The notes under the pieces: generated by a model | What the model was told of the DNA's origin: nothing | The model's input: only the letters and a program-made list of their open reading frames with translations | Databases searched by the model: none | Program-made: the position numbers and the translations under genes | Assembly: GCA_018663625.1 (NCBI GenBank) | Contig: JABJPX010000038.1 | Location: 1-64,000 of the forward strand | Length of the DNA: 64,000 nucleotides | Reading direction: 5' to 3' | Source: Polaribacter sp. | Lineage (GTDB): Bacteria > Bacteroidota > Bacteroidia > Flavobacteriales > Flavobacteriaceae | Shown: positions 35,966 through 64,000 of the stretch, piece by piece | Layout of the letters: each line of letters opens with the position of its first letter | Numbering within the stretch: position 1 is the first letter of the stretch

Positions 35966-38410
35966 TTACAAATTACCAATTCTAATAATATCTGCAAAAA
36001 TACCCGAAGCTGTTACATCTGCTCCTGCACCTGCTCCTTTAATTATAAGTGGGTTTATTGGGTATCTGTCCGTGAAAAACAACACGATATTGTCACTCCC
36101 TTCCAGGTTATAAAAAGGATGTTCTGGAGCAATCTGTTGCAAGCCAACATTGGCATTTACATTTTCAAATGTTGCCACATATTTTAAACGACAATTTTTA
36201 GTGTTCGCTTCGTTGAATAAGTTTTTGAAATGTGTTTCATTTTGTACTAAAGATTCATAAAAAGCATCATTATTTGATGTTTTTAAGCTGTTTTCGGGTA
36301 AAAAAGCATTGTTTTCTATATTTTCTAACTCTAAATCGTAGCCGCTTTCTCTGGCTAAAATTAGAATTTTTCTTGCGACATCGATACCACTTAAATCAAT
36401 TTTTGGATCTGGCTCTGTATATCCTTCTTTTTGTGCTTGTGCTACCACATCATGAAAGGTAGTGTTTTCGTTGTAGTTGTTAAATACAAAGTTTAAACTT
36501 CCTGATAAAACGGCTTGAATTTTATGAACTCGATCGCCCGAAGCTATTAAGTTTTTTAAAGTGTCAATGATGGGTAAACCTGCACCCACATTTGTTTCAA
36601 ATAAGAAAGGAGCATTGTACTTTCTTGAAGTTTCTTTTAGTTTTTTATAATTTTCTAAAGTAGAGGCACAGGCAATTTTATTACAGGTTACGACACCAAT
36701 ACTTTCGCTTAAGTAGTTTTCGTAAAATTCTGAAACCTGCTGATTGGCGGTATTGTCTACAAAAACACTGTTTCTTAAGTTGTTGCTTTTTACTTTTTCA
36801 AAGAAGGCTATCAAACTCGTTGGTGTTCCGTTTTCTAATGGTTTTTTCCAGTTTTCCAAGTCAATACCATTTTCATCAAAAAACATTTTTCGAGAGTTTG
36901 AAATTCCGACAACTTTAATACTTAGTTTTAAATGCTTTTTTAAGTATTTTTTTTGCTGATGAATTTGAGCTAAAAAGCGTTCTCCAACATTTCCAACACC
37001 AGTAACAAAGAGGTTCAGTTGTTTTATTTTTTCTTCAAAAAATTGTTCATGTAAAGTGTTTAATGCTTTTTTCGCATCTTTTTTATTAATGACTGCCGAA
37101 ATGTTTTTTTCTGAGGCTCCTTGAGCAATTGCGCGAATATTGACATTGTTTTTCCCTAAAGAGCTAAACATTTTTCCGCTCAATCCTTGGTGGTTTTTCA
37201 TATTGTCTCCAACCAAAGCAATAATGCATAAATCTTGCTCTAAAATAACAGGTCTTACTTTTTGCTGATGAATTTCATATTCAAAGGTACTATCAATTAA
37301 TTTTTGAGCCCGATATGCGTCTTTATTTTCAACACCGATACAAATGGACAATTCAGAAGATGCTTGGGTAATTAAAGTGATGTTTATTTCGTGTAAAGAA
37401 AGTATTTCGAATAAACGTTTTGAAAACCCGGGCATCCCTACCATACCAGTACCACCTAATGTAATGAGTGTTATGTTTTCTATATAACTAATTCCTTTTA
37501 CGGGTTGGTTATTGGTGTGGGTATCTTTGGTAATTCGAGTCCCGATATCTTCAGGTTGAAATGTGTTTTTAATGACAATTGGGATTTCTTTTTGTAAAAC
37601 AGGTTGAATTGTTGGAGGGTAAATCACTTTTGCCCCAAAATGTGATAATTCCATGGCTTCGTGGTACGAAATATGAGGGATCGCAAATGCTTGTTTTACA
37701 ATGCTTGGATTGGAAGTGAACATTCCGCTTACGTCTGTCCATATTTGCAATTCTTTGGCATCTAAAGCCGCTGCATAAATTGCCGCTGAATAGTCAGAAC
37801 CACCCCGACCCAATGTCGTTGTTTGTCCTAGGTTTGTCCGAGCAACAAAACCAGGCATTAACGTAACATGTGCAGTAGCGTCCTTAAAGTAGTCTGTAAT
37901 GTTTTTGTTCGTTGCTGGAAAATCAACTACAGCATCTAAATACATTTCAGAGGCAACAATTAAATCTCGACTGTCTTTGTAGATGGTGTCGATTTTTAAA
38001 TTAGAAATTTCTGCAATGATAGAAGCTGATAATAATTCACCAAAACTAGAGATTGTAGCCAATGTTTTTGGACTCAATTCTTCCAATAAATAACATCCTT
38101 TGTAAATTGTTTCTAGTTGGTTGAATAATTCTTTGATATGTGCAACGATCGTAGGTTGCTGCTCTGTAGGAATTAACTCTTCAATGACATTAAAATGATG
38201 TTTTTCTAACTTTTGAATGATCTCCTTATAGCCGCTATTTTTATTTTGTGCCAAGTGTGCTCCTTCAATTAATGCATTTGTTGTTTTACCAAAGGCAGAA
38301 ACCACAACGATTATTTTTTGTTTTTTAGACGTAGCAATAATAATATTTATTACTTTTTTTATGTTTTCTGAACTAGCTACCGAGGAACCTCCAAATTTTA
38401 AGACTTTCAT
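35966..38410 (-). CDS. thrA: Bifunctional aspartate kinase/homoserine dehydrogenase I
   Basis: 814 residues. The kinase part (1-290) has KFGGSSVAS at the start and the TTLGRGGSDYSAA substrate loop. Two ACT regulatory domains (about 300-450; LITLGGTGMVGMPGFSKRLFEIL and IIALVGDNMKNHQGLSGKMFSSL) follow. The homoserine dehydrogenase (about 460-814) has LFVTGVGNVGERFLAQI for NAD(P) and SGSLNFVFNNY...EGYTEPDPKIDLSGIDVARKILIL. It catalyses the first and third steps to threonine. It heads thrABC and is preceded by a 200-nt leader with a Thr/Ile-rich peptide, so attenuation as well as ACT feedback is likely. Confidence 0.96.
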   Translation of the reverse strand: MKVLKFGGSSVASSENIKKVINIIIATSKKQKIIVVVSAFGKTTNALIEGAHLAQNKNSGYKEIIQKLEKHHFNVIEELIPTEQQPTIVAHIKELFNQLETIYKGCYLLEELSPKTLATISSFGELLSASIIAEISNLKIDTIYKDSRDLIVASEMYLDAVVDFPATNKNITDYFKDATAHVTLMPGFVARTNLGQTTTLGRGGSDYSAAIYAAALDAKELQIWTDVSGMFTSNPSIVKQAFAIPHISYHEAMELSHFGAKVIYPPTIQPVLQKEIPIVIKNTFQPEDIGTRITKDTHTNNQPVKGISYIENITLITLGGTGMVGMPGFSKRLFEILSLHEINITLITQASSELSICIGVENKDAYRAQKLIDSTFEYEIHQQKVRPVILEQDLCIIALVGDNMKNHQGLSGKMFSSLGKNNVNIRAIAQGASEKNISAVINKKDAKKALNTLHEQFFEEKIKQLNLFVTGVGNVGERFLAQIHQQKKYLKKHLKLSIKVVGISNSRKMFFDENGIDLENWKKPLENGTPTSLIAFFEKVKSNNLRNSVFVDNTANQQVSEFYENYLSESIGVVTCNKIACASTLENYKKLKETSRKYNAPFLFETNVGAGLPIIDTLKNLIASGDRVHKIQAVLSGSLNFVFNNYNENTTFHDVVAQAQKEGYTEPDPKIDLSGIDVARKILILARESGYDLELENIENNAFLPENSLKTSNNDAFYESLVQNETHFKNLFNEANTKNCRLKYVATFENVNANVGLQQIAPEHPFYNLEGSDNIVLFFTDRYPINPLIIKGAGAGADVTASGIFADIIRIGNL

Positions 38411-38627
38411 TTTTTTTAATAAAATAGTGATAAATAATTTTTATGAATTTGTTTTCGAATCTTTCTCGAAAAATATGATGACCTAATTTGATATGAAAAA
38501 TAAGAACCCCTAAAGGGTAATAATCGAAGAAATGCGAATGGTACCAATAGTAGCCATATCAAATAGAATTGCTGAAATGGTTAATGAAATAATATGTAGA
38601 TTTATGTTATTCACAAGGCAAAAATAT
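38411..38627 (-). promoter_or_regulatory. thr operon leader with candidate attenuator
   Basis: TATTTTTG on the minus strand (complement of 38620-38627) is a -7 element. Downstream lie the leader peptide (stop at 38511-38513) and a perfect 10-bp long-range stem: ATTTGATATG (complement of 38556-38565), placed on the inner ATG, with CATATCAAAT (complement of 38487-38496), beyond the peptide stop. A ribosome on the peptide would decide whether this stem forms. A short ACCC/GGGT hairpin followed by a T-rich tract sits at the stop codon; it is a weak terminator at best. The rest of the 314-bp spacer (38628-38724) shows no gene. Confidence 0.55.
38511..38615 (-). CDS. thrL: thr operon leader peptide, Ile/Thr-rich
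   Basis: 34 codons from a GTG at 38615 to TAG, ending 100 nt before thrA. It begins MNNINLHIISLTISAIL and ends MATIGTIRISSIITL. It has 10 Ile and 4 Thr, concentrated in the last 15 codons. An inner ATG at 38558 gives just that 15-residue peptide (5 Ile, 3 Thr). The GTG form is favoured because HIIS falls at residues 7-10 in both this peptide and the ilv leader, with identical codons (CATATTATTTCA). Against it, the best -7 element would leave almost no leader before GTG. Enterobacterial thr operons have Thr/Ile-rich leader peptides of the same kind; a link by descent is not claimed. Confidence 0.6.
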
Positions 38628-40387: not shown

Positions 40388-40395
40388 TACATTTG
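40388..40395 (+). promoter_or_regulatory. -7 promoter element of the leu-ilv operon
   Basis: TACATTTG fits TAnnTTTG and lies 30 bases before the leuA ATG. The leader of about 25 nt is too short for an attenuator, unlike the ilvD leader further down. Confidence 0.5.
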
Positions 40396-40425: not shown

Positions 40426-41601
40426 ATGCAGGATAATAAAGTTCAAATTTTTGATACTACCCTAAGAGATGGAGAACAAGTGCCAGGATGTAAACTGGAT
40501 ACGAAACAAAAGTTGGTGATTGCGGAACGTTTAGATTTGTTAGGTGTCAATGTTATCGAAGCTGGGTTTCCTGTCTCCAGTCCAGGAGATTTTAATTCTG
40601 TTTCAGAAATTTCAAAAATAGTAAAAAATGCAACGGTTTGTGGATTGACAAGAGCCGTAGAAAATGATATAAAAGTAGCCGCAGAAGCCTTGAAATATGC
40701 CAAATTTCCTAGAATTCATACTGGGATTGGTACCAGCGATTCCCATATAAAATTTAAATTCAATACTACTAGAGAAAAAGTAATTGAACGTGCTGTAAAA
40801 GCCGTTTCGTATTCAAAATCCTTTGTAGAAGATGTTGAGTTTTACGCCGAAGATGCTGGTAGAACGGAGAATGAATATTTAGCAAGCGTATGCGAAGCAG
40901 TTATTAAAGCAGGAGCTACGGTATTGAATATTCCAGACACAACAGGTTACTGCTTGCCAGAAGAATATGGTGCAAAAATAAAATACCTAAGAGAAAATGT
41001 AAAAGGCATCGAAAATGTAATTCTTTCCTGTCATTGTCACAATGATCTAGGAATGGCAACCGCAAATTCAATTGCAGGAGTTATGAACGGGGCACGTCAA
41101 ATAGAATGTACGATCAACGGAATTGGTGAGCGCGCAGGAAATACTGCCTTAGAAGAAGTTGTGATGGTTTTAAAGCAACACCCGTATTTGAATTTGGTGA
41201 CTGATATCAATACAAAATTATTATACGATACCAGTATTTTGGTTCGTGAAAGTATGGGAATGCCTGTACAACCCAATAAGGCAATTGTAGGTGCAAATGC
41301 CTTTGCGCACAGTTCTGGAATTCACCAAGATGGTGTAATTAAAAATAGAGAAACATACGAAATAATGGATCCTGAAGATGTGGGGGTTACAGAAAGTGCT
41401 ATTATTTTAACTGCAAGAAGTGGTAGAGCCGCATTGGCCTACAGAGCAAAAAAGATTGGATACGAATTGACAAAGGTGCAACTAGATTATGCTTATGAAG
41501 CATTTCTTGAATATGCAGATAAACAGAAAGAAGTAATGAATGAAGATCTTCATTTGATTTTAAAAAAAGTAAATAAAATTTCTAAAATAACAATGACATA
41601 A
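40426..41601 (+). CDS. leuA: 2-isopropylmalate synthase, short form without regulatory domain
   Basis: 391 residues from the ATG at 40426; an earlier frame start would place the N-terminus upstream of the promoter. The DRE-TIM barrel begins [71 protein letters not shown] (metal-binding HxH) and [14 protein letters not shown] are LeuA motifs. Canonical LeuA has about 510 residues and a C-terminal LeuA allosteric domain; this one ends about 115 residues earlier, after a helical subdomain. It condenses acetyl-CoA with 2-oxoisovalerate. Context (leuCDB) supports LeuA over citramalate or homocitrate synthase. The stop overlaps the leuC start (TAATG). Confidence 0.92.
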
Positions 41602-42983
41602 TGGGAAAAACATTATTTGATAAAGTTTGGGATGCTCATGTGGTTGATGTTATTGAAAATGGACCACAGGTGTTGTATATCGATAAGCATTTGATTCATG
41701 AAGTAACAAGCCCCCAGGCTTTTAATGAGTTAGAAAGTCGAGGAATTCCGGTAGCAAGACCTGATAAAATTGTGGCTACAGCAGATCACAATACCCCAAC
41801 ATTAAATCAGCATTTGCCTGTAAAAGATTTTTTGTCTAGAAATCAATTAGAACAACTTACTAAAAACTGTGCTAAAAATAAGATTACCTTATATGGTTTA
41901 GGCCATGAGAATAACGGAATTGTTCACGTGATAGCCCCAGAATTAGGGTTCACTCAACCTGGTATGACCATGGTCTGTGGAGATTCTCATACATCAACAC
42001 ATGGTGCTTTTGGTACCATTGCTTTTGGAATTGGTACCAGTCAAGTAGCGCAAGTATTTGCAAGCCAATGTTTATTGTTAGAGAAACCAAAAAGTTTGCG
42101 TGTAAATGTAAACGGAAAATTAGCAAAAGGGGTATTGCCAAAAGATGTTATTCTGTATATTATTTCTAAACTGGGAACCAATTCTGGTACAGGGTACTTC
42201 TGTGAATATGCAGGGAATGTTTTTGAAGAAATGTCTATGGAAGGCAGAATGACCGTTTGTAATATGAGTATTGAAATGGGAGCAAGAGGAGGAATGATTG
42301 CTCCAGACGAAACCACTTTTGAATATGTAAAGGGAAGAGAGTTTGCACCGAAAGGAGCTGCATTTGACCAGAAAGTTGCTGCATGGAAAACACTTCCTAC
42401 GGATGCTGATGCCATTTTTGACCAAGAATATTCAATAAATGCGGAAGACATTGGTCCCATGATTACCTATGGTACCAATCCAGGAATGGGAATTAAGATT
42501 ACAGAAAACATCCCAGAACTAGAGGATGCCTCGTTTGAGAAATCATTAGCATATATGAATTTCAAAAAAGGAGAATCGCTGATTAATAAGGCCATTAATT
42601 ATGTTTTTATTGGAAGTTGTACCAACTCTAGAATTGAAGATTTTAGAATTGCAGCCGCTTTTGTGAAAGGAAAAAAGAAAGCTGATAATGTAAATGCCTG
42701 GTTGGTTCCAGGTTCACAGAAAGTAGCAAAGCAAATAGAAGCAGAAGGATTAAAAGCTATTTTTGAAGCTGCTGGTTTTACATTAAGGCAGCCCGGATGT
42801 TCTGCCTGTTTGGCAATGAATGATGATAAAATTCCACAAGGTGAATATTGTGTTTCTACTTCAAACAGAAACTTTGAAGGGAGACAAGGGCAAGGAGCCA
42901 GAACTATTTTGGCAAGTCCATTGGTAGCTGCAGTTACCGCAATAGAAGGAAGAATTGTAGATATTACAAAACAGATAAACTAA
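41601..42983 (+). CDS. leuC: 3-isopropylmalate dehydratase large subunit
   Basis: 460 residues, an aconitase-family [4Fe-4S] enzyme. Cluster cysteines lie in [15 protein letters not shown] and in [11 protein letters not shown] (C-x2-C). [25 protein letters not shown] is the family signature. With LeuD it isomerises 2- to 3-isopropylmalate. It is coupled by one-base overlaps (TAATG) to leuA before it and leuD after it. Confidence 0.97.
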
Positions 42984-43561
42984 TGGAGAAATTTATACAA
43001 TTAACATCGACAGCGATTCCTTTAGAAACGGAGAATGTGGATACAGATCAAATAATTCCAGCACGTTTTTTAAAAGCAACGGATAAATTAGGATTTGGAG
43101 ACAATGTTTTTAGAGATTGGCGTTTCCACAAAGATGGAAGTCTTAATGAAAGTTTTCCATTAAATCAGTCTATCTATGGTGGAAGTATATTAGTGGCTGG
43201 AAACAATTTTGGTTGTGGTTCTAGTAGAGAACATGCAGCCTGGGCATTGGCAGGCTATGGTTTTAAAGTGATTGTAAGTAGTTTTTTTGCAGATATCTTT
43301 AAAGGAAACGCACTAAATAATGGTGTATTACCAATACAAGTTTCCGAAGTATTTTTGAAAGACTTATTAGATAAAATTCAAGTAGATCCTACATTAGAAA
43401 TCAATATAGACTTAGAAAATCAATCTATTTCTTATGTCAATGGAGAAGAAGCATTTGAAATAGACGCATATAAAAAAGTCTGTTTGATCAACGGATATGA
43501 TGATATTGATTTTTTAATCAGTAAAAAAGATAAAATTAACGCCTTTGAGGCAACACGATAA
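42983..43561 (+). CDS. leuD: 3-isopropylmalate dehydratase small subunit
   Basis: 192 residues. The swivel domain has [16 protein letters not shown] near the start and [42 protein letters not shown], the substrate-recognition loop of the family. It pairs with LeuC. It overlaps leuC by one base, and leuB follows after 5 bp. Confidence 0.97.
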
Positions 43562-43566
43562 AAGTT

Positions 43567-44682
43567 ATGAAATTTAATATTGCAGTAATTCCTGGAGACG
43601 GGATTGGGCCAGAGGTAATCAATCAAGCAAAAAAAGCACTCAACGCAGTAGCAAACACGTTCAATCATGTTTTTATTTATAAAGAAGCGCAGATGGGAGC
43701 TTGTGCAATTGATGCAACAGGAAATCCGTTACCAGACAATACACTAAAGATTTGTAAAGATTCAGATGCCATATTATTTGGTGCTATCGGAGATCCAAAG
43801 TATGATAATGACCCAACAGCAAAAGTAAGACCAGAGCAAGGATTATTAAAATTACGAAAAGAATTAGGATTGTTTTGTAACATAAGACCAGTAAAAGCTT
43901 ACGAACAACTCATCGACAATTCTCCCTTAAAAAGAGAAATTATTTCCGGTACTGACATTTCTATCTTTAGAGAATTAACAGGCGGAATTTATTTTGGAAT
44001 AAAGAAGTTAAGTGAAGACGGGACTGTTGCTTTTGATGGTTGCTCTTATTCAGTAACTGAAATTTCAAGAATTGCGCATTTCGCATTTAAATCAGCACAA
44101 AACAGGAGAAAAAAAGTAACTCTAGTTGACAAGGCAAATGTATTAGAAACATCTCGTTTGTGGAGAAAAATAGTTACAGAAATTGCCAAAGAGTATAAAG
44201 ATGTTACCCTAGAATTTCTATTTGTAGACAATGCTGCCATGCAAATGATTTTAAATCCAAAACAATTTGATGTCATTCTTACCGAAAACCTTTTTGGAGA
44301 TATTATTTCTGACGAAGCCAGTGTTATCGGGGGGTCTATTGGGTTGCTTGCATCGTCCTCTATTGGAAATGAAAACGCACTTTTTGAGCCTATACACGGT
44401 TCATTTCCACAAGCAACAGGTAAGGATATTGCCAATCCTTTGGCGTCTATCTTATCGGCAGCCATGTTGTTAGAGCATTTAGGTTTGCATGATGAAGCTG
44501 AAGCTGTCGAAAATGCCGTTGAAAAATCCTTAGAATTGTCAATTGTTACTGGAGATTTAAATCCTGAAAAATCTTTTTCGACTTCTAAAGTGGGAGATTT
44601 TATTGCAGATTACATTGAACATCCAGATGATAGTAATCATAATTTTCAAAACATTCACATGGGGCAAAGTACCATTATCTAA
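43567..44682 (+). CDS. leuB: 3-isopropylmalate dehydrogenase
   Basis: 371 residues. IAVIPGDGIGPEVINQA, LLKLRKELGLFCNIRPVKAY, RELTGGIYFG and the metal-binding LTENLFGDIISDEASVIGGSIGLLASSSIG are the signature parts. PIHGSFPQATGKDIANPLA binds NAD. It oxidises and decarboxylates 3-isopropylmalate to 2-oxoisocaproate. The 317-bp spacer that follows carries the ilv leader and terminator rather than a new promoter, so it is the last gene before an internal attenuator. Confidence 0.97.
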   Translation: MKFNIAVIPGDGIGPEVINQAKKALNAVANTFNHVFIYKEAQMGACAIDATGNPLPDNTLKICKDSDAILFGAIGDPKYDNDPTAKVRPEQGLLKLRKELGLFCNIRPVKAYEQLIDNSPLKREIISGTDISIFRELTGGIYFGIKKLSEDGTVAFDGCSYSVTEISRIAHFAFKSAQNRRKKVTLVDKANVLETSRLWRKIVTEIAKEYKDVTLEFLFVDNAAMQMILNPKQFDVILTENLFGDIISDEASVIGGSIGLLASSSIGNENALFEPIHGSFPQATGKDIANPLASILSAAMLLEHLGLHDEAEAVENAVEKSLELSIVTGDLNPEKSFSTSKVGDFIADYIEHPDDSNHNFQNIHMGQSTII

Positions 44683-44711
44683 ATTATAAAAGAGGAACTC
44701 GTTACACTTAT

Positions 44712-44771
44712 ATGAACAGAAAAACGATCCATATTATTTCAATGATTCTCATCGTAATTCCTACGACATGA
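44712..44771 (+). CDS. ilvL: ilv leader peptide
   Basis: 19 codons from ATG to TGA: MNRKTIHIISMILIVIPTT. Six of 19 residues are Ile, with one Val, one Leu and three Thr. AGAGGAA lies about 19 nt upstream of the ATG and could be a ribosome site. A strong terminator begins 27 nt past the stop codon, and ilvD follows. This is the textbook order of an amino-acid attenuator: slow Ile-tRNA would stall the ribosome over the AU-rich Ile codons and change folding downstream. HIIS at residues 7-10 matches the thr leader. The peptide is called from composition and position only. Confidence 0.7.
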   Translation: MNRKTIHIISMILIVIPTT

Positions 44772-44776
44772 TCTTG

Positions 44777-44887
44777 AAGTGCTCTTTATAATTTTTATAA
44801 AAAACCTTCCCAATTTTCGGAAGGTTTTTTACGAAAATAATTCAAAAGTTGGGTGTCATATAAAAAATCATTTAAAGTGCTGTTTAT
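44777..44887 (+). repeat. 13-bp near-identical direct repeat flanking the ilv terminator
   Basis: AAGTGCTCTTTAT (44777-44789) and AAGTGCTGTTTAT (44875-44887) agree in 12 of 13 bases and lie 98 bp apart, one on each side of the terminator hairpin. The rest of the spacer up to ilvD (44888-44999) is A/T-rich with no reading frame or consensus promoter I can support. Confidence 0.45.
44799..44830 (+). terminator. ilv attenuator terminator
   Basis: AAAAAACCTTCC / GGAAGGTTTTTT make a perfect 12-bp stem with an 8-nt loop, ending in T6. It lies between the ilv leader peptide and ilvD. The upstream arm CCTTCC could instead pair in part with TTGAAG at 44774-44779, just after the peptide, giving a competing structure. 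It may also serve as the end of leuACDB transcripts. Confidence 0.8.
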
Positions 44888-44999
44888 GAGTGTTTTAATT
44901 GGTTTATATGGTACGTGAATTTAGCTTTTTTAATTATGAAATATTCAACAAAAACACAGAAACATAGTAATTTAGTCAACAAATTGAAGCATTTAATAA

Positions 45000-46682
45000 A
45001 TGGAATTGAATAAACATAGCAAAAGATTAACACAAGATGAATCTCAGCCTGCATCACAAGCCATGTTGTATGCCGTAGGGTTGTCTGACGAAGACATGAA
45101 CAAAGCGCAAGTTGGTATTGCAAGTACAGGTTATGATGGGAATCCATGTAACATGCACTTAAACAATTTGGCAGCAGAAGTAAAAGTAGAATCTAAGATT
45201 GCAGGTTTAGTTGGTTTAGGTTTTAATACGATAGGAGTTTCAGATGGTATTTCGATGGGAACATCGGGAATGAATTATTCGTTAGCCTCCAGAGATATCA
45301 TTGCCGACTCTATTGAGACCGTAATGAATGCACAAAGTTATGATGGATTAATTTCTGTCGTTGGTTGTGATAAAAACATGCCAGGAGCCGTAATCGCCAT
45401 GTTGCGATTGAACAGACCTTCTATTATGATGTATGGAGGAACGATCGCATCTGGAAATTATAAAGGAAAAAAACTGAATATTGTTTCTGCATTTGAAGCC
45501 TTAGGTCAAAAAGTAGCAGGAGAAATCGAAGAAGAAGAATACCGAGAAATTATAAAAAGAGCCATTCCAGGAGCTGGTGCGTGTGGAGGTATGTATACTG
45601 CAAATACAATGGCTTCTGCCATAGAGTGTATGGGGTTTGCATTGCCTTACAACTCATCAATACCTGCAGAAAACCCAAACAAACTATCGGAAGCAGAAAG
45701 AACAGCATTGGCCATTAAGAACTTACTGGCATTGGATTTAAAACCTTTAGACATTATTTCTAAGAAATCCATCGAAAATGCCATTGCAATTGTAAATGCA
45801 TTGGGAGGTTCTACAAATGCAGTCTTACATTTTTTAGCAATTGCACATGCAGCAGATATCGACTTTACTTTGTCAGATTTTCAAAAAGTAAGTGATCGAA
45901 CTCCATTAATTGCCGATTTAAAACCATCGGGAAAATATTTGATGGAAGATGTTCATGGAGTAGGTGGAACGCCAGCAGTCATGAAGTATTTGTTAGACAA
46001 CGGATATTTACACGGTGAATGCTTAACCGTTACTGGAAAAACATTGGCTGAGAACTTAGCACATGTGGAAGCATTGACTTTTGAGGAAGACGCTCAAGAT
46101 GTCATTTATCCAAAAGACAAGGCGCTTAAATCTTCAGGAAATATTCAAATATTATATGGAAACCTTGCCAACGAGGGCGCTGTGGCAAAAATTTCTGGAA
46201 ATGAAGGCTTACTCTTTGAAGGAAAAGCAGTGGTGTATGATGGAGAACAAGCTGCCAATACGGGAATATCAAAAGGAGAAGTCTCTAGAGGCGATGTGGT
46301 GGTTATTCGGTATGTAGGCCCCAAAGGTGGACCCGGAATGCCAGAAATGTTAAAACCAACATCCTTAATTATGGGAGCCGGTTTAGGAAAATCAGTAGCA
46401 TTAATTACCGATGGTCGTTTTTCTGGAGGAACCCATGGTTTTGTCGTAGGACACATTACACCAGAAGCACAGTCAGGAGGAACCATTGCACTTCTAGAAA
46501 CAGGAGATACGATTCGAATTAGTGCAGAAAATAACACCATTAACGTGTTGCTTTCAGAAGAAGAGTTAGCCGCTAGAAAAGCAAATTGGATTGCACCCGC
46601 ATTAAAACATAAAAAAGGAATCTTATACAAATATGCAAAAGTAGTTGCGTCCGCTTCAAAAGGATGTATTACTGATGCTTAA
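45000..46682 (+). CDS. ilvD: Dihydroxy-acid dehydratase
   Basis: 560 residues, IlvD/Edd family. Cluster cysteines: C50 ([10 protein letters not shown]), C123 ([11 protein letters not shown]) and the one in [34 protein letters not shown] and [17 protein letters not shown] with [20 protein letters not shown] are signature motifs. It dehydrates the dihydroxy acids of the Ile and Val routes using an Fe-S cluster. It is first of ilvDBNCA, downstream of the leader peptide and terminator, so its expression should respond to Ile supply. Confidence 0.97.
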
Positions 46683-46732: not shown

Positions 46733-48466
46733 ATGGAAACTCAAACCATCAAAAATAAAGAAACAGATCAAATAGTTACCGAAAGAATTTCAGGTAGCGA
46801 AGCCATTGTTCGTAGTTTAATCGCGGAAGGAGTAAAGGTTTTGTACGGGTACCCTGGCGGCGCAATTATGCCCGTTTATGATGAATTGTATAAATACCAA
46901 GACAAAATACACCATGTGTTAACACGTCATGAGCAAGGGGCAACCCATTCAGCACAAGGATATGCAAGAATTTCAGGAGAAGTAGGTGTAGCAATTGCAA
47001 CTTCTGGTCCTGGAGCCACCAATTTAATTACTGGAATTGCAGATGCGCAAATAGATTCGACTCCAATGATCTGTATTACAGGGCAAGTACCTTCTCATTT
47101 ATTGGGAAGTGATGCTTTTCAAGAAACAGATATTGTCGGTATTTCTTCTCCTGTGACAAAATGGAATTGCCAAGTAACTAAAGCATCTCAAATCCCAGAA
47201 GCCATCGCCAAAGCATTTTTCATCGCAAAAAGCGGAAGACCTGGGCCTGTTTTGGTTGATATTACCAAAGATGCACAGTTTGAAGAGTTTGATTTTTCTT
47301 ACCAAAAATGTACGAAAGTAAGAAGTTATGTGCCTGTTCCAAAAACAGTATCAGGTACTTTGGAAGCGGCAGCAAAACTGATTAACGGAGCTAAAAAACC
47401 AATGATTATTTGGGGACAAGGCGTTGTTTTAAGTGAAGCAGAAGAAGCCTTTAAAGCCCTTGTAGAAAAATCAGGAATTCCAGCTGCATGGACCATTTTA
47501 GGTGCTTCTGCATTGCCAACTTCGCATCGTTTAAATGTGGGGATGTTGGGTATGCATGGTAATTATGCACCCAATAAACTTACCAATGAGTGTGATGTGT
47601 TGATTGCTATAGGAATGCGTTTTGATGATCGAGTTACTGGAGATCTCACCAAATATGCGAAACAAGCAAAAGTGATTCATTTTGAAATTGATCCTTCAGA
47701 AATTGATAAAAATGTAAAAACGGATGTTGCTGTTTTAGGGGATGCGAAAGCAACTTTAACTGCAATTTTACCGCTTATAAATGAGAATACACATACAGCT
47801 TGGCATCAAGAATTTAAAGATTTATATGCCATTGAATATGAAAAAATAATCAAAGACGATCTTTATCCAACAAAAGAGGGTTTGACAATGGGTGAAGTAA
47901 TTCATCAGATAAATGTGCATAGTAATGGAGACGCAGCCATTGTTACAGATGTTGGTCAACATCAAATGATCGCCTGTCGATATGCCGAATTCAATAAAAC
48001 AAAAAGTAACATTACTTCGGGTGGTTTAGGAACCATGGGGTTTGGACTGCCTGCAGCTATTGGTGCTAAAATGGCCGCGCCAGAGAGAGAAGTGGTTTCC
48101 ATTTCGGGAGATGGAGGTTATCAAATGACCATTCAAGAATTAGGGACTATTTTTCAGCAAAAAGCAGCGGTTAAAGTGGTGGTTCTAAATAATGATTTTT
48201 TAGGAATGGTACGTCAGTGGCAGCAGTTGTTTTTTGACAAACGCTATGCTTCCACAGAAATGATCAATCCAAATTTTGTTGCCATTGCGGAAGGCTATTA
48301 TTTAAAAGCAAGAAAAGTAACAAAACGAGAAGATTTGGCAGCAGCAGTAAAAGAAATGATGGAAAGCAAAGAAGCCTATTTTTTAGAAGTTTGTGTAGAA
48401 AAAGAAGGAAATGTATTTCCAATGGTTCCTTCAGGAGCAAGTGTTTCAGACATCCGTTTGTCATAA
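46733..48466 (+). CDS. ilvB: Acetolactate synthase large subunit
   Basis: 577 residues, a TPP-dependent enzyme. The catalytic Glu is E67 in LTRHEQGATHSAQGYAR, and VLYGYPGGAIMPVYDEL precedes it. The TPP motif is GDGGYQMTIQELGTIFQQKAAVKVVVLNN near residue 463. GMRFDDRVTGDLTKYA belongs to the FAD-binding domain. It condenses pyruvate with pyruvate or 2-oxobutyrate. ilvN follows after 38 bp; ilvD precedes by 50 bp. Confidence 0.97.
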   Translation: METQTIKNKETDQIVTERISGSEAIVRSLIAEGVKVLYGYPGGAIMPVYDELYKYQDKIHHVLTRHEQGATHSAQGYARISGEVGVAIATSGPGATNLITGIADAQIDSTPMICITGQVPSHLLGSDAFQETDIVGISSPVTKWNCQVTKASQIPEAIAKAFFIAKSGRPGPVLVDITKDAQFEEFDFSYQKCTKVRSYVPVPKTVSGTLEAAAKLINGAKKPMIIWGQGVVLSEAEEAFKALVEKSGIPAAWTILGASALPTSHRLNVGMLGMHGNYAPNKLTNECDVLIAIGMRFDDRVTGDLTKYAKQAKVIHFEIDPSEIDKNVKTDVAVLGDAKATLTAILPLINENTHTAWHQEFKDLYAIEYEKIIKDDLYPTKEGLTMGEVIHQINVHSNGDAAIVTDVGQHQMIACRYAEFNKTKSNITSGGLGTMGFGLPAAIGAKMAAPEREVVSISGDGGYQMTIQELGTIFQQKAAVKVVVLNNDFLGMVRQWQQLFFDKRYASTEMINPNFVAIAEGYYLKARKVTKREDLAAAVKEMMESKEAYFLEVCVEKEGNVFPMVPSGASVSDIRLS

Positions 48467-48504: not shown

Positions 48505-49032
48505 ATGAGTACAGAAAAACAATTATTTACCATTTCAGTGTATACTGAAAACAATATTGGTTTATTGAATCGAATCTCCGCAATTTTTCAGCGAAGACAC
48601 ATCAATATCGAAAGTTTAAATACCTCGCCTTCTGAAATAGAAGGGGTCTCTAAATTTACAATTGTGGTCAATATGACAGATGAAAACATGAAGAAGATCA
48701 TTGGTCAGATAGAAAAGCAAGTAGAGGTTATTAAGGCCTATTATCACAAAGACGAAGATACTATTTATCAAGAATCGTGTATTTTTAAAATGCAATCTGA
48801 TTTGCTTTTTGAAGAAAGACAAATTCAGAATATTATTAAAGATAGCAATGCAAGAATTGTTACCGTAAATAAATCCTTTTTTGTGATTGAAAAATCAGGA
48901 AGAAAAGAAGAAGTAGATTTAATTTATAAAGAATTAAAACCTTTTGGAATATTGCAATTTACGCGTTCGGGAAGAGTATCTGTATCAAAACAACCCATGG
49001 AAATTTCACAAATGCTGACAGCATTCAACTAA
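48505..49032 (+). CDS. ilvN: Acetolactate synthase regulatory subunit
   Basis: 175 residues, the IlvH/IlvN type. An N-terminal ACT domain (about 6-80: [37 protein letters not shown]) binds valine or another effector. The C-terminal half (about 90-170) is the ALS_ss_C domain, ending [13 protein letters not shown]-like ([17 protein letters not shown]). It activates IlvB and gives feedback control. It lies 11 bp before ilvC. Confidence 0.95.
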
Positions 49033-49043
49033 AAAAAGTAAAC

Positions 49044-50522
49044 ATGTCAAATTATTTTAACACATTATCATTAAGAAATCAATTAGAACAATTAGGGAAA
49101 TGTAGATTTATGGATTCCTCAGAATTTGTAGATGGCGTTCAAGCATTAAAAGGAAAGAAAATTGTAATTGTTGGTTGTGGTGCACAAGGACTGAACCAGG
49201 GATTGAATATGAGAGATTCAGGTTTGGATATTTCATATACTTTACGTCAAGCTGCAATTGATCAAAAAAGAGATTCATACCTCAATGCAACCTCCAATGG
49301 TTTTACGGTGGGAACCTATGAAGAATTGATTCCTTCAGCAGATTTAGTATTGAATTTAACGCCAGACAAACAGCATACAAACGTTGTAACAACGATTATG
49401 CCGTTAATGAAGAAAAATGCAACGTTAAGCTATTCTCATGGATTTAATATTGTAGAAGAAGGAATGCAGATTCGTAAAGACTTAACTGTAATTATGGTTG
49501 CACCAAAATGTCCAGGAAGTGAAGTTCGTGAAGAATATAAACGTGGTTTTGGAGTGCCTACATTGATAGCAGTTCATCCAGAAAACGATCCAGAAAATAA
49601 AGGTTGGGCGCAAGCAAAAGCTTATGCGGTTGCAACCGGTGGAGACAGAGCAGGTGTGTTAGCATCCTCTTTCGTCGCTGAAGTAAAGTCCGATTTAATG
49701 GGAGAACAAACTATTTTATGTGGTTTGTTACAAACAGGAGCGATCTTATCTTTTGATAAAATGGTTGCTGAAGGTATTGATCCAGGATATGCTGCAAAAC
49801 TCATTCAATATGGTTGGGAAACTACAACAGAAGCGTTAAAGCATGGTGGAATTACTAATATGATGGATCGTTTGTCAAACCCAGCAAAAATTGAAGCATT
49901 TCGAATTTCAGAAGAATTAAAAGAGATTATGCGTCCACTATTCAACAAGCATATGGACGATATTATTTCTGGGCATTTTTCAAAAACGATGATGGAAGAT
50001 TGGGCAAACAATGACAAAAATTTATTGTCTTGGAGAGCTGCCACTGGAGAAACTGCTTTTGAAAAACAAGCCCTTACAGATCAAGAGATTTCTGAACAAG
50101 AATATTTTGACCACGGTACTTTATTAGTAGCTTTTGTTAGAGCAGGTGTAGAGTTGGCTTTTGAAGCAATGACTGCAGCGGGAATCATTGAGGAATCTGC
50201 GTATTATGAATCCTTACATGAAACACCATTAATTGCAAATACCATTGCACGTAAAAAATTATTTGAAATGAATCGAGTGATTTCTGATACTGCAGAATAC
50301 GGGTGTTATTTATTTGATCATGCTTGTAAGCCGTTGTTAACAGATTTTATGAAAACAGTAAAAACAAACATTATTGGGAAATCGTTTACAAATGAAAATG
50401 GTGTAGACAACCAAGAGTTAATTGCTGTAAATAGCGCAATCCGAAATCATCCAGTTGAAATCATTGGTGCACAACTAAGAGCTTCAATGACTGCAATGAA
50501 AGTAATTACATCAGAAGCATAA
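49044..50522 (+). CDS. ilvC: Ketol-acid reductoisomerase, class II
   Basis: 492 residues, the long (class II) form with a duplicated C-terminal knotted domain. The NADPH site is [58 protein letters not shown] and [17 protein letters not shown] carry the Mg-binding Asp and Glu. It isomerises and reduces acetolactate or acetohydroxybutyrate. It sits between ilvN and ilvA, with only 3 bp to ilvA. Confidence 0.97.
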
Positions 50523-50525
50523 TTA

Positions 50526-51788
50526 ATGCAATCAAAAAACACCTATTTTCCAAGTTTAGAAAACGTAAAAGCAGCCGCTTCAAATTTAAAAGGAGTGGCT
50601 TCTATTACGCCATTGAGCCAAAATGTTCAAAATTCAAAGAAATTTGGAGCCAATATACTATTTAAAAGAGAAGATTTACAAGTCGTTCGATCTTATAAAA
50701 TAAGAGGTGCTTATAATAAAATGTCTTCTTTGTCAACAGCGCAAAGAGAAAAAGGAATTGTTTGTGCCAGTGCAGGAAATCATGCACAAGGTGTTGCATT
50801 ATCTTGTAAGTTATTACAGATAAAAGGTACTATTTACATGCCTTCACCAACTCCGAATCAGAAGATTGAACAGGTAAAAATGTTCGGTGAAGATTTTATT
50901 GAGGTTGTAATTGAAGGAGATACTTTTGATGATGCTTATCATGCATCCATAGTTGCTTGTGAAGCAGAAGACAAAACATTCATTCATCCTTTTAATGATG
51001 AAAAGGTGATTGAAGGGCAAGCAACTGTAGGATTAGAAATCCTGAATCAAGCTTCAGTAAAAATTGATTACGTTTTTGTAGCAGTAGGAGGTGGAGGTTT
51101 GTCATCAGGCTTATCTGCAGTTTTCAAGCACTTATCACCAGAAACAAAAATAATCGGAATAGAGCCAGAAGGAGCTCCATCAATGAAGACTTCTATCACT
51201 CATAAAAAAGTGATCGCTTTAGATAAGATTGATGCTTTTATAGATGGTGCTGCTGTTAAAAGAGTCGGCGATTTGAACTTTGATATCTGTTTGCAAAACT
51301 TATCCGATATGATTACAATTCCGGAAGGAAAAGTCTGTCAGACCATTTTAGATCTCTACAATAAAGACGCCATTGTTGTTGAACCAGCAGGAGCGTTAAG
51401 TATTGCTGCATTAGATAGCTATGCAGATGAAATTCGTGGAAAGAATGTTGTTTGTATAGTGAGTGGAAGCAATAATGACATTACTCGAACTGCAGAAATT
51501 AAAGAAAGAGCTTTATTGTTTGCTAATTTAAAGCATTATTTCATCATTAAGTTTCCACAAAGAGCGGGTGCATTGAAAGAATTTTTGGTCGATATTTTAG
51601 GACCAAATGATGATATTACTCATTTTGAATATACCAAAAAAACCAATAGAGAAAATGGTGCAGCTGTTGTTGGCCTGCAATTAAAGTCATCCAGTGACCT
51701 AGCTCCTTTGGTTGCAAAAATGAAAAAAAATAATTTTTATGGTGATTATCTGAACGATAAACCCGATTTATTTCAATTTTTAGTGTAA
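50526..51788 (+). CDS. ilvA: Threonine deaminase (biosynthetic)
   Basis: 420 residues. The PLP lysine is K58 in VRSYKIRGAYNKM. SAGNHAQGVALSCKLL and the glycine-rich VAVGGGGLSSGLSAVFKHL bind PLP. The C-terminal 90 residues (HYFIIKFPQRAGALKEFLVDILGPNDDITHFEYTKK) form a single ACT-like domain, half of the tandem pair in the E. coli enzyme. It converts threonine from the thrABC pathway to 2-oxobutyrate, entry to isoleucine. Last of the ilv genes proper. Confidence 0.95.
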   Translation: MQSKNTYFPSLENVKAAASNLKGVASITPLSQNVQNSKKFGANILFKREDLQVVRSYKIRGAYNKMSSLSTAQREKGIVCASAGNHAQGVALSCKLLQIKGTIYMPSPTPNQKIEQVKMFGEDFIEVVIEGDTFDDAYHASIVACEAEDKTFIHPFNDEKVIEGQATVGLEILNQASVKIDYVFVAVGGGGLSSGLSAVFKHLSPETKIIGIEPEGAPSMKTSITHKKVIALDKIDAFIDGAAVKRVGDLNFDICLQNLSDMITIPEGKVCQTILDLYNKDAIVVEPAGALSIAALDSYADEIRGKNVVCIVSGSNNDITRTAEIKERALLFANLKHYFIIKFPQRAGALKEFLVDILGPNDDITHFEYTKKTNRENGAAVVGLQLKSSSDLAPLVAKMKKNNFYGDYLNDKPDLFQFLV

Positions 51789-63901: not shown

Positions 63902-63929
63902 TTAGCAATTTTTATCTTAGTTTCGCATC

Positions 63930-64000
63930 GATTTTAGGTTTTGATATCACAGTCGTTTGCTATCAAATTAAAAGGGAATCTGGTTAAAATCCAGAACTGT
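63930..64000 (+). promoter_or_regulatory. Cobalamin riboswitch, 5' part (cut by window end)
   Basis: The B12-box core is visible: GGGAATCTGGT at 63974, TAAAATCC and then AGAACTGT at the very edge, fitting GGGAA-GGTnnAA-CC-ACTGT of the AdoCbl aptamer. TTTGATA (63940-63946) and TATCAAA (63961-63967) form an upstream paired arm, followed by AAAAGGGAA as expected. It reads rightwards, away from btuF, so it should control an unseen gene, most likely a TonB-dependent B12 receptor (BtuB) or other corrinoid gene. Binding AdoCbl would switch the downstream gene off. Confidence 0.85.

Follow-up and report, generated by a model that had tools for sequence, protein, structure and literature searches.

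An isoleucine-rich leader and terminator between leuB and ilvD suggest an internal attenuator in a leu-ilv operon of Polaribacter

Introduction

Leader-peptide attenuation is best known from Proteobacteria. The attenuators of Escherichia coli ilvGMEDA and ilvBN and of Corynebacterium glutamicum ilvBNC lie at the 5′ end of their operons, and in the leu-ilv cluster of Lactococcus lactis, where leu genes followed by ilvDBNCA are subject to attenuation, the leader precedes the first leu gene. The E. coli pheST genes, which follow an attenuator, have a promoter before pheM. In Staphylococcus aureus, the ilv-leu attenuator is also located at the operon 5′ end, and the antiterminator proposed for it pairs with the U run without disrupting the terminator stem (PMC5794164). 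The pheM attenuator, which lies beside rplT and before pheST, senses phenylalanine and controls a tRNA synthetase (PMC5371410). A small intergenic ORF in a Mg2+ transporter operon of Salmonella acts, according to the title of the paper, on the translation of the next gene, and its title and the start of its abstract make no claim of a terminator (PMC8092293). In Bacteroidota, whose mRNAs lack SD sequences (PMC6847099), leader-peptide attenuation has been proposed and not worked out: in Flavobacterium psychrophilum, a member of the Flavobacteriaceae, "strong clues" for it were found upstream of amino-acid operons, and no word starting with ilv occurs in the main text of that study (PMC9723704).

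Here, we analysed a 64-kb stretch of Polaribacter sp. DNA (hereafter, the window) in which a leader lies between leuB and ilvD, unlike the L. lactis leader. The locus shares with the E. coli, C. glutamicum and S. aureus (PMC5794164) ilv systems a short ORF in which the regulated amino acid is abundant, followed by a terminator, an antiterminator and the control of ilv genes. It differs from them in having leuACDB upstream with no promoter of its own seen, and from the S. aureus one in that the stem itself, through its strand 3, is the predicted target of the antiterminator. Like pheM, it places a leader-peptide attenuator between genes, although it would sense isoleucine, and like the Salmonella case, it has a regulatory short ORF between two genes. 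In the open-licence literature, we found no paper on leader-peptide attenuation of ilvD in Bacteroidetes and none on an internal attenuator with a leader peptide in an operon, and, judging by titles and the beginnings of abstracts, nothing on isoleucine leader-peptide attenuation in Bacteroidetes in this arrangement. This kind of regulator is well known; its position in mid-operon, apparently without its own promoter, is unusual, and it is little described in the phylum.

Results

Layout of the leu and ilv genes

The window carries leuACDB-ilvDBNCA in this order on one strand, with gene identities that match NCBIfam (Table 1). A probable −7 box precedes leuA, and either TACATTTG or TATATTTG was present at this site in all seven relatives shown, while no leader peptide was seen in the 130 nt before leuA. 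The window LeuA lacks the C-terminal quarter, which in long LeuA contains the regulatory domain. In the genus, ilvD was present in 91 of 97 genomes and fell into two lineages, with 86-100% and 67-71% identity to the window ilvD; one genome (G023) has both, which suggests gene transfer. At 24 of 60 genus loci (e.g. L111-L116, L120-L123, L176 and L177), leuA is directly followed by leuB before ilvD, with no leuCD in between, and in L176 and L177 leuB shares 73% identity with the window leuB. A cobalamin riboswitch aptamer at 63919-64000 is cut by the window end.

Table 1. Features of the leu-ilv region, in window positions
Feature	Position	Strand	Basis or remark
leuA −7 box TACATTTG, probable promoter	40388..40395	+	30 nt before start codon; motif class enriched upstream of genes
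leuA, short form	40426..41601	+	profile NF002086; ends near position 384 of the best family profile (length 516)
leuC	41601..42983	+	NCBIfam
leuD	42983..43561	+	NCBIfam
leuB	43567..44682	+	NCBIfam
leuB-leader gap, 29 nt	44683..44711	+	without the NATATTTR box known before the leader in many relatives
Leader peptide ORF MNRKTIHIISMILIVIPTT, ATG..TGA	44712..44771	+	sequence read directly; 6 Ile of 19
Strand 1, predicted to pair with the strand 2 region in the absence of a ribosome block	44735..44747	+	fold prediction
Strand 2 core TTGAAG (GGAAG in many relatives), putative antiterminator partner of strand 3	44774..44779	+	comparison and fold prediction
AT hairpin TTTATAA-TTT-TTATAAA, extends the predicted antiterminator, overlaps the terminator stem	44785..44801	+	fold prediction
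Intrinsic terminator (strand 3, 44798-44810; loop; strand 4, 44819-44831; U6, 44825-44830)	44798..44831	+	sequence and folding
TAATTTAG, conserved promoter-like box (P2)	44968..44975	+	downstream of the terminator; ends 24 nt before ilvD
ilvD	45000..46682	+	NCBIfam
ilvB	46733..48466	+	NCBIfam
ilvN	48505..49032	+	NCBIfam
ilvC	49044..50522	+	NCBIfam
ilvA, threonine ammonia-lyase, first isoleucine-specific step	50526..51788	+	NCBIfam

An isoleucine-rich leader and a terminator precede ilvD

A first-pass annotation of this DNA had described an Ile-rich leader followed by a 12-bp terminator between leuB and ilvD. Both elements are present, with the isoleucines at codons 6, 8, 9, 12, 14 and 16 and a stem of 13 bp closed by an 8-nt loop. 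The terminator folds with −15.7 kcal/mol (z = −4.8; none of 200 shuffles folded equally well), and the 163-nt leader region has a folding z of −4.2. Using uniform thresholds, we counted three terminator-like hairpins and two Ile-rich short ORFs on the + strand of the window and three and four, respectively, on the − strand, and the leader and its terminator formed the sole pair of the two elements on either strand. The leader terminator was unlisted in an E. coli-type promoter/terminator scan, which is uninformative for this phylum, and no Rfam family, T-box or other, reached the gathering score at this site.

The same annotation had staked its reading on the conservation of the peptide in relatives, which was found both in the genus and beyond it. 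Specifically, one rule detected a leader-terminator pair at 47 of the 65 loci in the ilvD lineage to which the window belongs and at none of the 65 on the reverse strand; three of the 47 (L105, L108 and L137) were counted as false, their frame lying within leuB, and four leaders missed by the rule (L083, L110, L114 and L142) were included manually. Among the 23 genus loci with the other type of ilvD, only 3 had the pair. In other genera of the family, for which 109 of the 117 genomes with a match (besides G000) were analysed, it preceded ilvD at 55 of 109 loci versus 0 of 109 on the reverse strand. A typical genus peptide resembles MKKQILNIISIIIVIVIITT, and a typical terminator, AACCTTCC..GGAAGGTTTTTTT, spans about −200 to −173 from ilvD. 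We aligned 42 loci and the window, excluding named duplicates, loci without leuB upstream and short-gap loci, and the gaps inside the peptide in leader-bearing rows were of three or six columns. Some species are doubled in the sample, e.g. L002 = L110 and L003 = L128, which have identical ilvD stretches (L002 and L003 are Polaribacter).

Compared with the genus consensus, the window peptide has fewer isoleucines; it keeps IHIIS and its six Ile residues, and is a degenerate member of the genus leaders. The frame and the Ile-rich stretch have stayed open in the window, L082, L084 and L085 despite many substitutions, and in the sister genome G023 (L083) the codon ATT replaces the leader ATG that is present in its own sister L085. 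Genus loci without a leader exist and, together with the low count in the other ilvD lineage, indicate that the attenuator is dispensable. At none of the 109 loci from other genera was leuB directly upstream of ilvD within the 1.5-2.5 kb examined (only 268 and 838 nt at two loci), so that the leu-ilv fusion is not common among them; beyond these 109 loci, leuB does precede ilvD in Flavobacterium and at a few more distant loci.

Tandem arrangements, with two leader-terminator pairs before ilvD, were also observed, both in L104, L118, L133, L136, L009, L162, L021 and L033 and in 6 of the 109 loci from other genera (L235, L237, L267, L284, L299 and L306). In L104, L118, L133 and L136, the second leader ends in SPPS and has its stop inside TTGATACAG, while the arms of the second terminator are CCTGTATC and GATACAGG (CCTGTAT and ATACAGG in L118), from which GATACAG paired with CTGTATC is expected as the antiterminator of the second leader. 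With two attenuators in series, such a locus would behave as an AND gate.

Elsewhere in the window, a Thr/Ile-rich leader candidate, MNNINLHIISLTISAILFDMATIGTIRISSIITL, lies at 38510-38614 on the − strand, upstream of thrA (35966-38410). Its GTG start is placed 4 nt after a TATTTTTG box (38619-38626), suggesting a near-leaderless start, and peptides with a similar end (ITL) occur in L171-L173, L176 and L177. No clear terminator with a U run was seen behind this leader in the window.

Folding predicts a switch that depends on the ribosome position

With a ribosome placed on one codon after another, we folded the RNA from its downstream side to the terminator loop and used the pairing of strand 3 (44804-44810) as readout, in a thermodynamic model with an assumed leading edge of 15 nt. 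In the window, strand 3 pairing was 0.01-0.02 with the P site at codons 1-4, 0.37 at codon 5 and 0.57-0.66 at codons 6-17, among which are all six Ile codons, and then fell to 0.07 at codon 18 and at most 0.01 at codon 19 and the stop. Only one of 300 shuffles of 44772-44800 attained the mid value and none the contrast. A contrast of at least 0.4 was obtained for 104 of 126 scored pairs versus 102 of 630 spacers shuffled in two-letter blocks, the other 17 of 143 pairs being unscored as the arm had no uninterrupted Watson-Crick partner. The window fold thus modelled predicts a terminator that is free when translation is finished or absent and hindered when the ribosome stalls at the Ile codons. 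Antiterminator and terminator are predicted to exclude each other, and the antiterminator is weaker in the window, where it consists of GAAG and the AT hairpin.

In relatives, the 3′ arm of the terminator is copied near the leader stop. Of 81 pairs, 48 had a match of at least five letters, 18 one of four and 15 one of three or fewer, and 46 of these 48 longer copies start within −4 to +8 of the end of the stop codon. The corresponding numbers for the 61 pairs from other genera were 27, 24 and 10. The copied letters vary by lineage (GGAAG for GGAAGG, GATACAG for GATACAGG, AGAAG for AGAAGG, GAATGG for GAATGGC, and AAAGGGAT for GTAAAGGGA then T), and a match that persists while its letters change between lineages is the signature of an antiterminator. 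Taken singly, matches of at least five letters stand out only weakly against shuffled sequence (p 0.00-0.50, with a sum of 6.5 over the 48), and the weight of this evidence lies in their recurrence at one place. Strand 2 of the window matches strand 3 by GAAG only (4 pairs) compared with 5 to 8 matching letters in many relatives, and the antiterminator is weakened in the window lineage. The fold switch and the open frame nevertheless argue that the window copy still works, and we consider it probably functional.

These results also bear on whether an Ile-rich frame could have arisen by chance in AT-rich DNA before an ordinary terminator. Such DNA is rich in Ile codons and the peptide is short; against this, the pair is unique in the window, random relative offsets, tried 5000 times per strand, yielded a pair only 21 times on the + strand and 60 times on the − strand, the pair recurs in other genera on the coding strand alone and the arm copies are lineage-specific, which together make a chance origin hardly credible.

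Transcription of the leader most likely comes from the leu genes

The leader begins 29, 24 and 23 nt after leuB in L082, L083 and L085, and 51 nt after it in the neighbouring L084, which has a box before the leader; leuACDB is upstream in all four, as in the window. Over the 60 nt that precede the leader start codon in the window, L082 (its nearest relative), L083 and L085, we found neither NATATTTR nor TANNTTTG, the −7 element of the phylum (PMC6847099, PMC9723704), in agreement with the earlier remark that no promoter is visible between leuB and the peptide, the absence of a motif being weak evidence. One of the two forms, of which NATATTTR was picked after viewing the alignment and with box states typed by hand, is present at 27 of 40 leader loci with leuB upstream: 26 of 28 with leuB at least 45 nt away and 1 of 12 with leuB nearer (Fisher p 4e-7, which ignores relatedness). 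This set excludes L105, L108 and L137 (false) and L144 (wrong start) and includes eight hand-typed leaders missed by the automatic rule, that of the window among them. On the ilvD tree, built without L169 (too short) and without the Flavobacterium, L065 and L078 loci, spacing and box state gave five independent pairs, of which an average of 2.9 agreed, 0 opposed and 2.1 were the same, and the sign test was not significant. The box state changed at least seven times on this tree, and the pre-leader box may have been lost several times in the genus.

The element TANNTTTG is enriched upstream of genes in this genome (36 of 113 regions versus 7.6 expected), while no enrichment was seen for the class [AGC]A..TTTG, to which most NATATTTG forms belong (13 of 113 versus 19.3 expected). 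In addition, the pre-leader NATATTTR lacks a T that is nearly invariant in the mapped promoters of F. johnsoniae (PMC6847099). The pre-leader box is therefore only a probable promoter.

An active Ile attenuator with its own promoter, located in the 29-nt gap or within the last part of leuB, would be an ordinary promoter-proximal one and not internal. The boxes of the widely spaced relatives speak for it, as do six Flavobacterium loci with leuB upstream that carry TACTTTTG before the leader, and the AT-rich promoters of Bacteroidota are easily missed. The lack of either motif in the window and its three short-spaced relatives points the other way, as do leaders that begin 2 nt (L006) and 4 nt (L144) after the leuB stop, and we regard a separate promoter as unlikely. 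Since the window belongs to the short-spacing group without a box, its leader is most likely fed from leu transcription, which favours the internal attenuator that the first-pass annotation had proposed.

A conserved promoter-like box lies downstream of the terminator

The pattern TA.TTT.G occurs within 60 nt before ilvD at 59 of 69 loci versus a Markov chance mean of 1.5, uncorrected for relatedness. The class TA.TTTAG is mildly enriched in this genome (6 versus 2.0 expected, with the ilvD region in the sample), and the TAATTTAG of the window differs from the consensus at a site reported to be almost invariant in F. johnsoniae (PMC6847099). This P2 box may add some attenuator-independent ilv transcription. 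Among ten leaderless loci, seven have TATTTTTG (L098, L101, L121, L122, L126, L128 and L137) and three TAATTTAG (L091, L105 and L108), and a terminator-like hairpin before ilvD is kept in five (L091, L105, L108, L126 and L137). We do not claim a link between leader loss and a consensus box before ilvD, for which there are only two independent pairs on supported branches.

The conservation of this box and the leaderless loci that retain a hairpin would fit a terminator that now only ends the leu operon, with the leader as a relic and ilvDBNCA transcribed from TAATTTAG. The missing start codon of L083 and the weakened strand 2 of the window lineage point in the same direction. Yet the fold switch of the window persists with the right codon dependence, the frame and its Ile-rich stretch are open in four loci, the window included, and the window box is a non-consensus one from a class with mild enrichment; we judge it quite unlikely that the leader is a relic. 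Even so, most ilv transcription could start from TAATTTAG. The attenuator may be in decay, as suggested by the weak strand 2, the fewer isoleucines, the ATG loss in L083 and the lost pre-leader box, and selection on the attenuator may have been relaxed in the window lineage.

The spacer between terminator and ilvD (44832-44999) has a near-constant length (~172 nt) in many genus loci, with the conserved words TTGAATATCATAAT and ACCTGAATTTAAAG, and contains a dyad like ATTGAATTTTATTCAAT in many relatives. RNAalifold detected no conserved RNA structure in these ~170 nt (66 rows, including the non-homologous L100, L102, L119 and L170). Perhaps the spacer is a regulator site of the downstream start.

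Discussion

We consider it likely that this locus is a classic leader-peptide attenuator, responsive to charged tRNA-Ile, that lies within a fused leuACDB-ilvDBNCA operon and is fed by leu read-through. It comprises a short ORF with Ile codons, whose translation is putative, and a terminator between this leader and the first regulated gene, and it closely follows co-directional leu genes; fold prediction links a stalled ribosome to the antiterminator and a finished one to the terminator. In the mechanism that we infer, RNA polymerase coming from the leu genes would transcribe the leader. When Ile-tRNA is short, the ribosome would stall on the Ile codons and cover strand 1, strand 2 (GAAG and the AT hairpin) would pair with strand 3 (CTTC) and the polymerase would continue into ilvD. 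When the ribosome finishes or never starts, strand 3 would be free, the CCTTCC/GGAAGG hairpin would form and transcription would stop at 44825-44830. The ancestral box from which leader transcription probably began has been lost here, so the valve would work on leu read-through, while the box after the terminator probably adds some ilv transcription that escapes the attenuator.

The peptide, the arm copies and the predicted folds support the first-pass reading of the locus as a ribosome-mediated attenuator that mainly senses isoleucine. Its further statement, that leuACDB is constant and ilvDBNCA adjusted, finds incomplete support: the P2 box was ignored, the antiterminator is weaker in the window lineage than in many relatives and the constancy of leu expression is without support. 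That reading is right at its core and incomplete in leaving out the downstream box.

More tentatively, and with more doubt than confidence, we suggest that ilv attenuators next to a promoter have more than once become valves within an operon through operon fusion, with leaders 2-41 nt after leuB that are probably fed by ribosomes finishing leuB. Within one genus, leaders with their own box, leaders without it, a terminator alone and tandem attenuators are found side by side, so that the survival of regulation through operon fusion can be tested by comparison. The arrangement suggests how the leu and ilv genes of one operon could differ in their expression ratio. If our reading is true, ilv output would be the product of leu transcription and a fraction set by isoleucine, above a minimum supplied by a second, downstream start.
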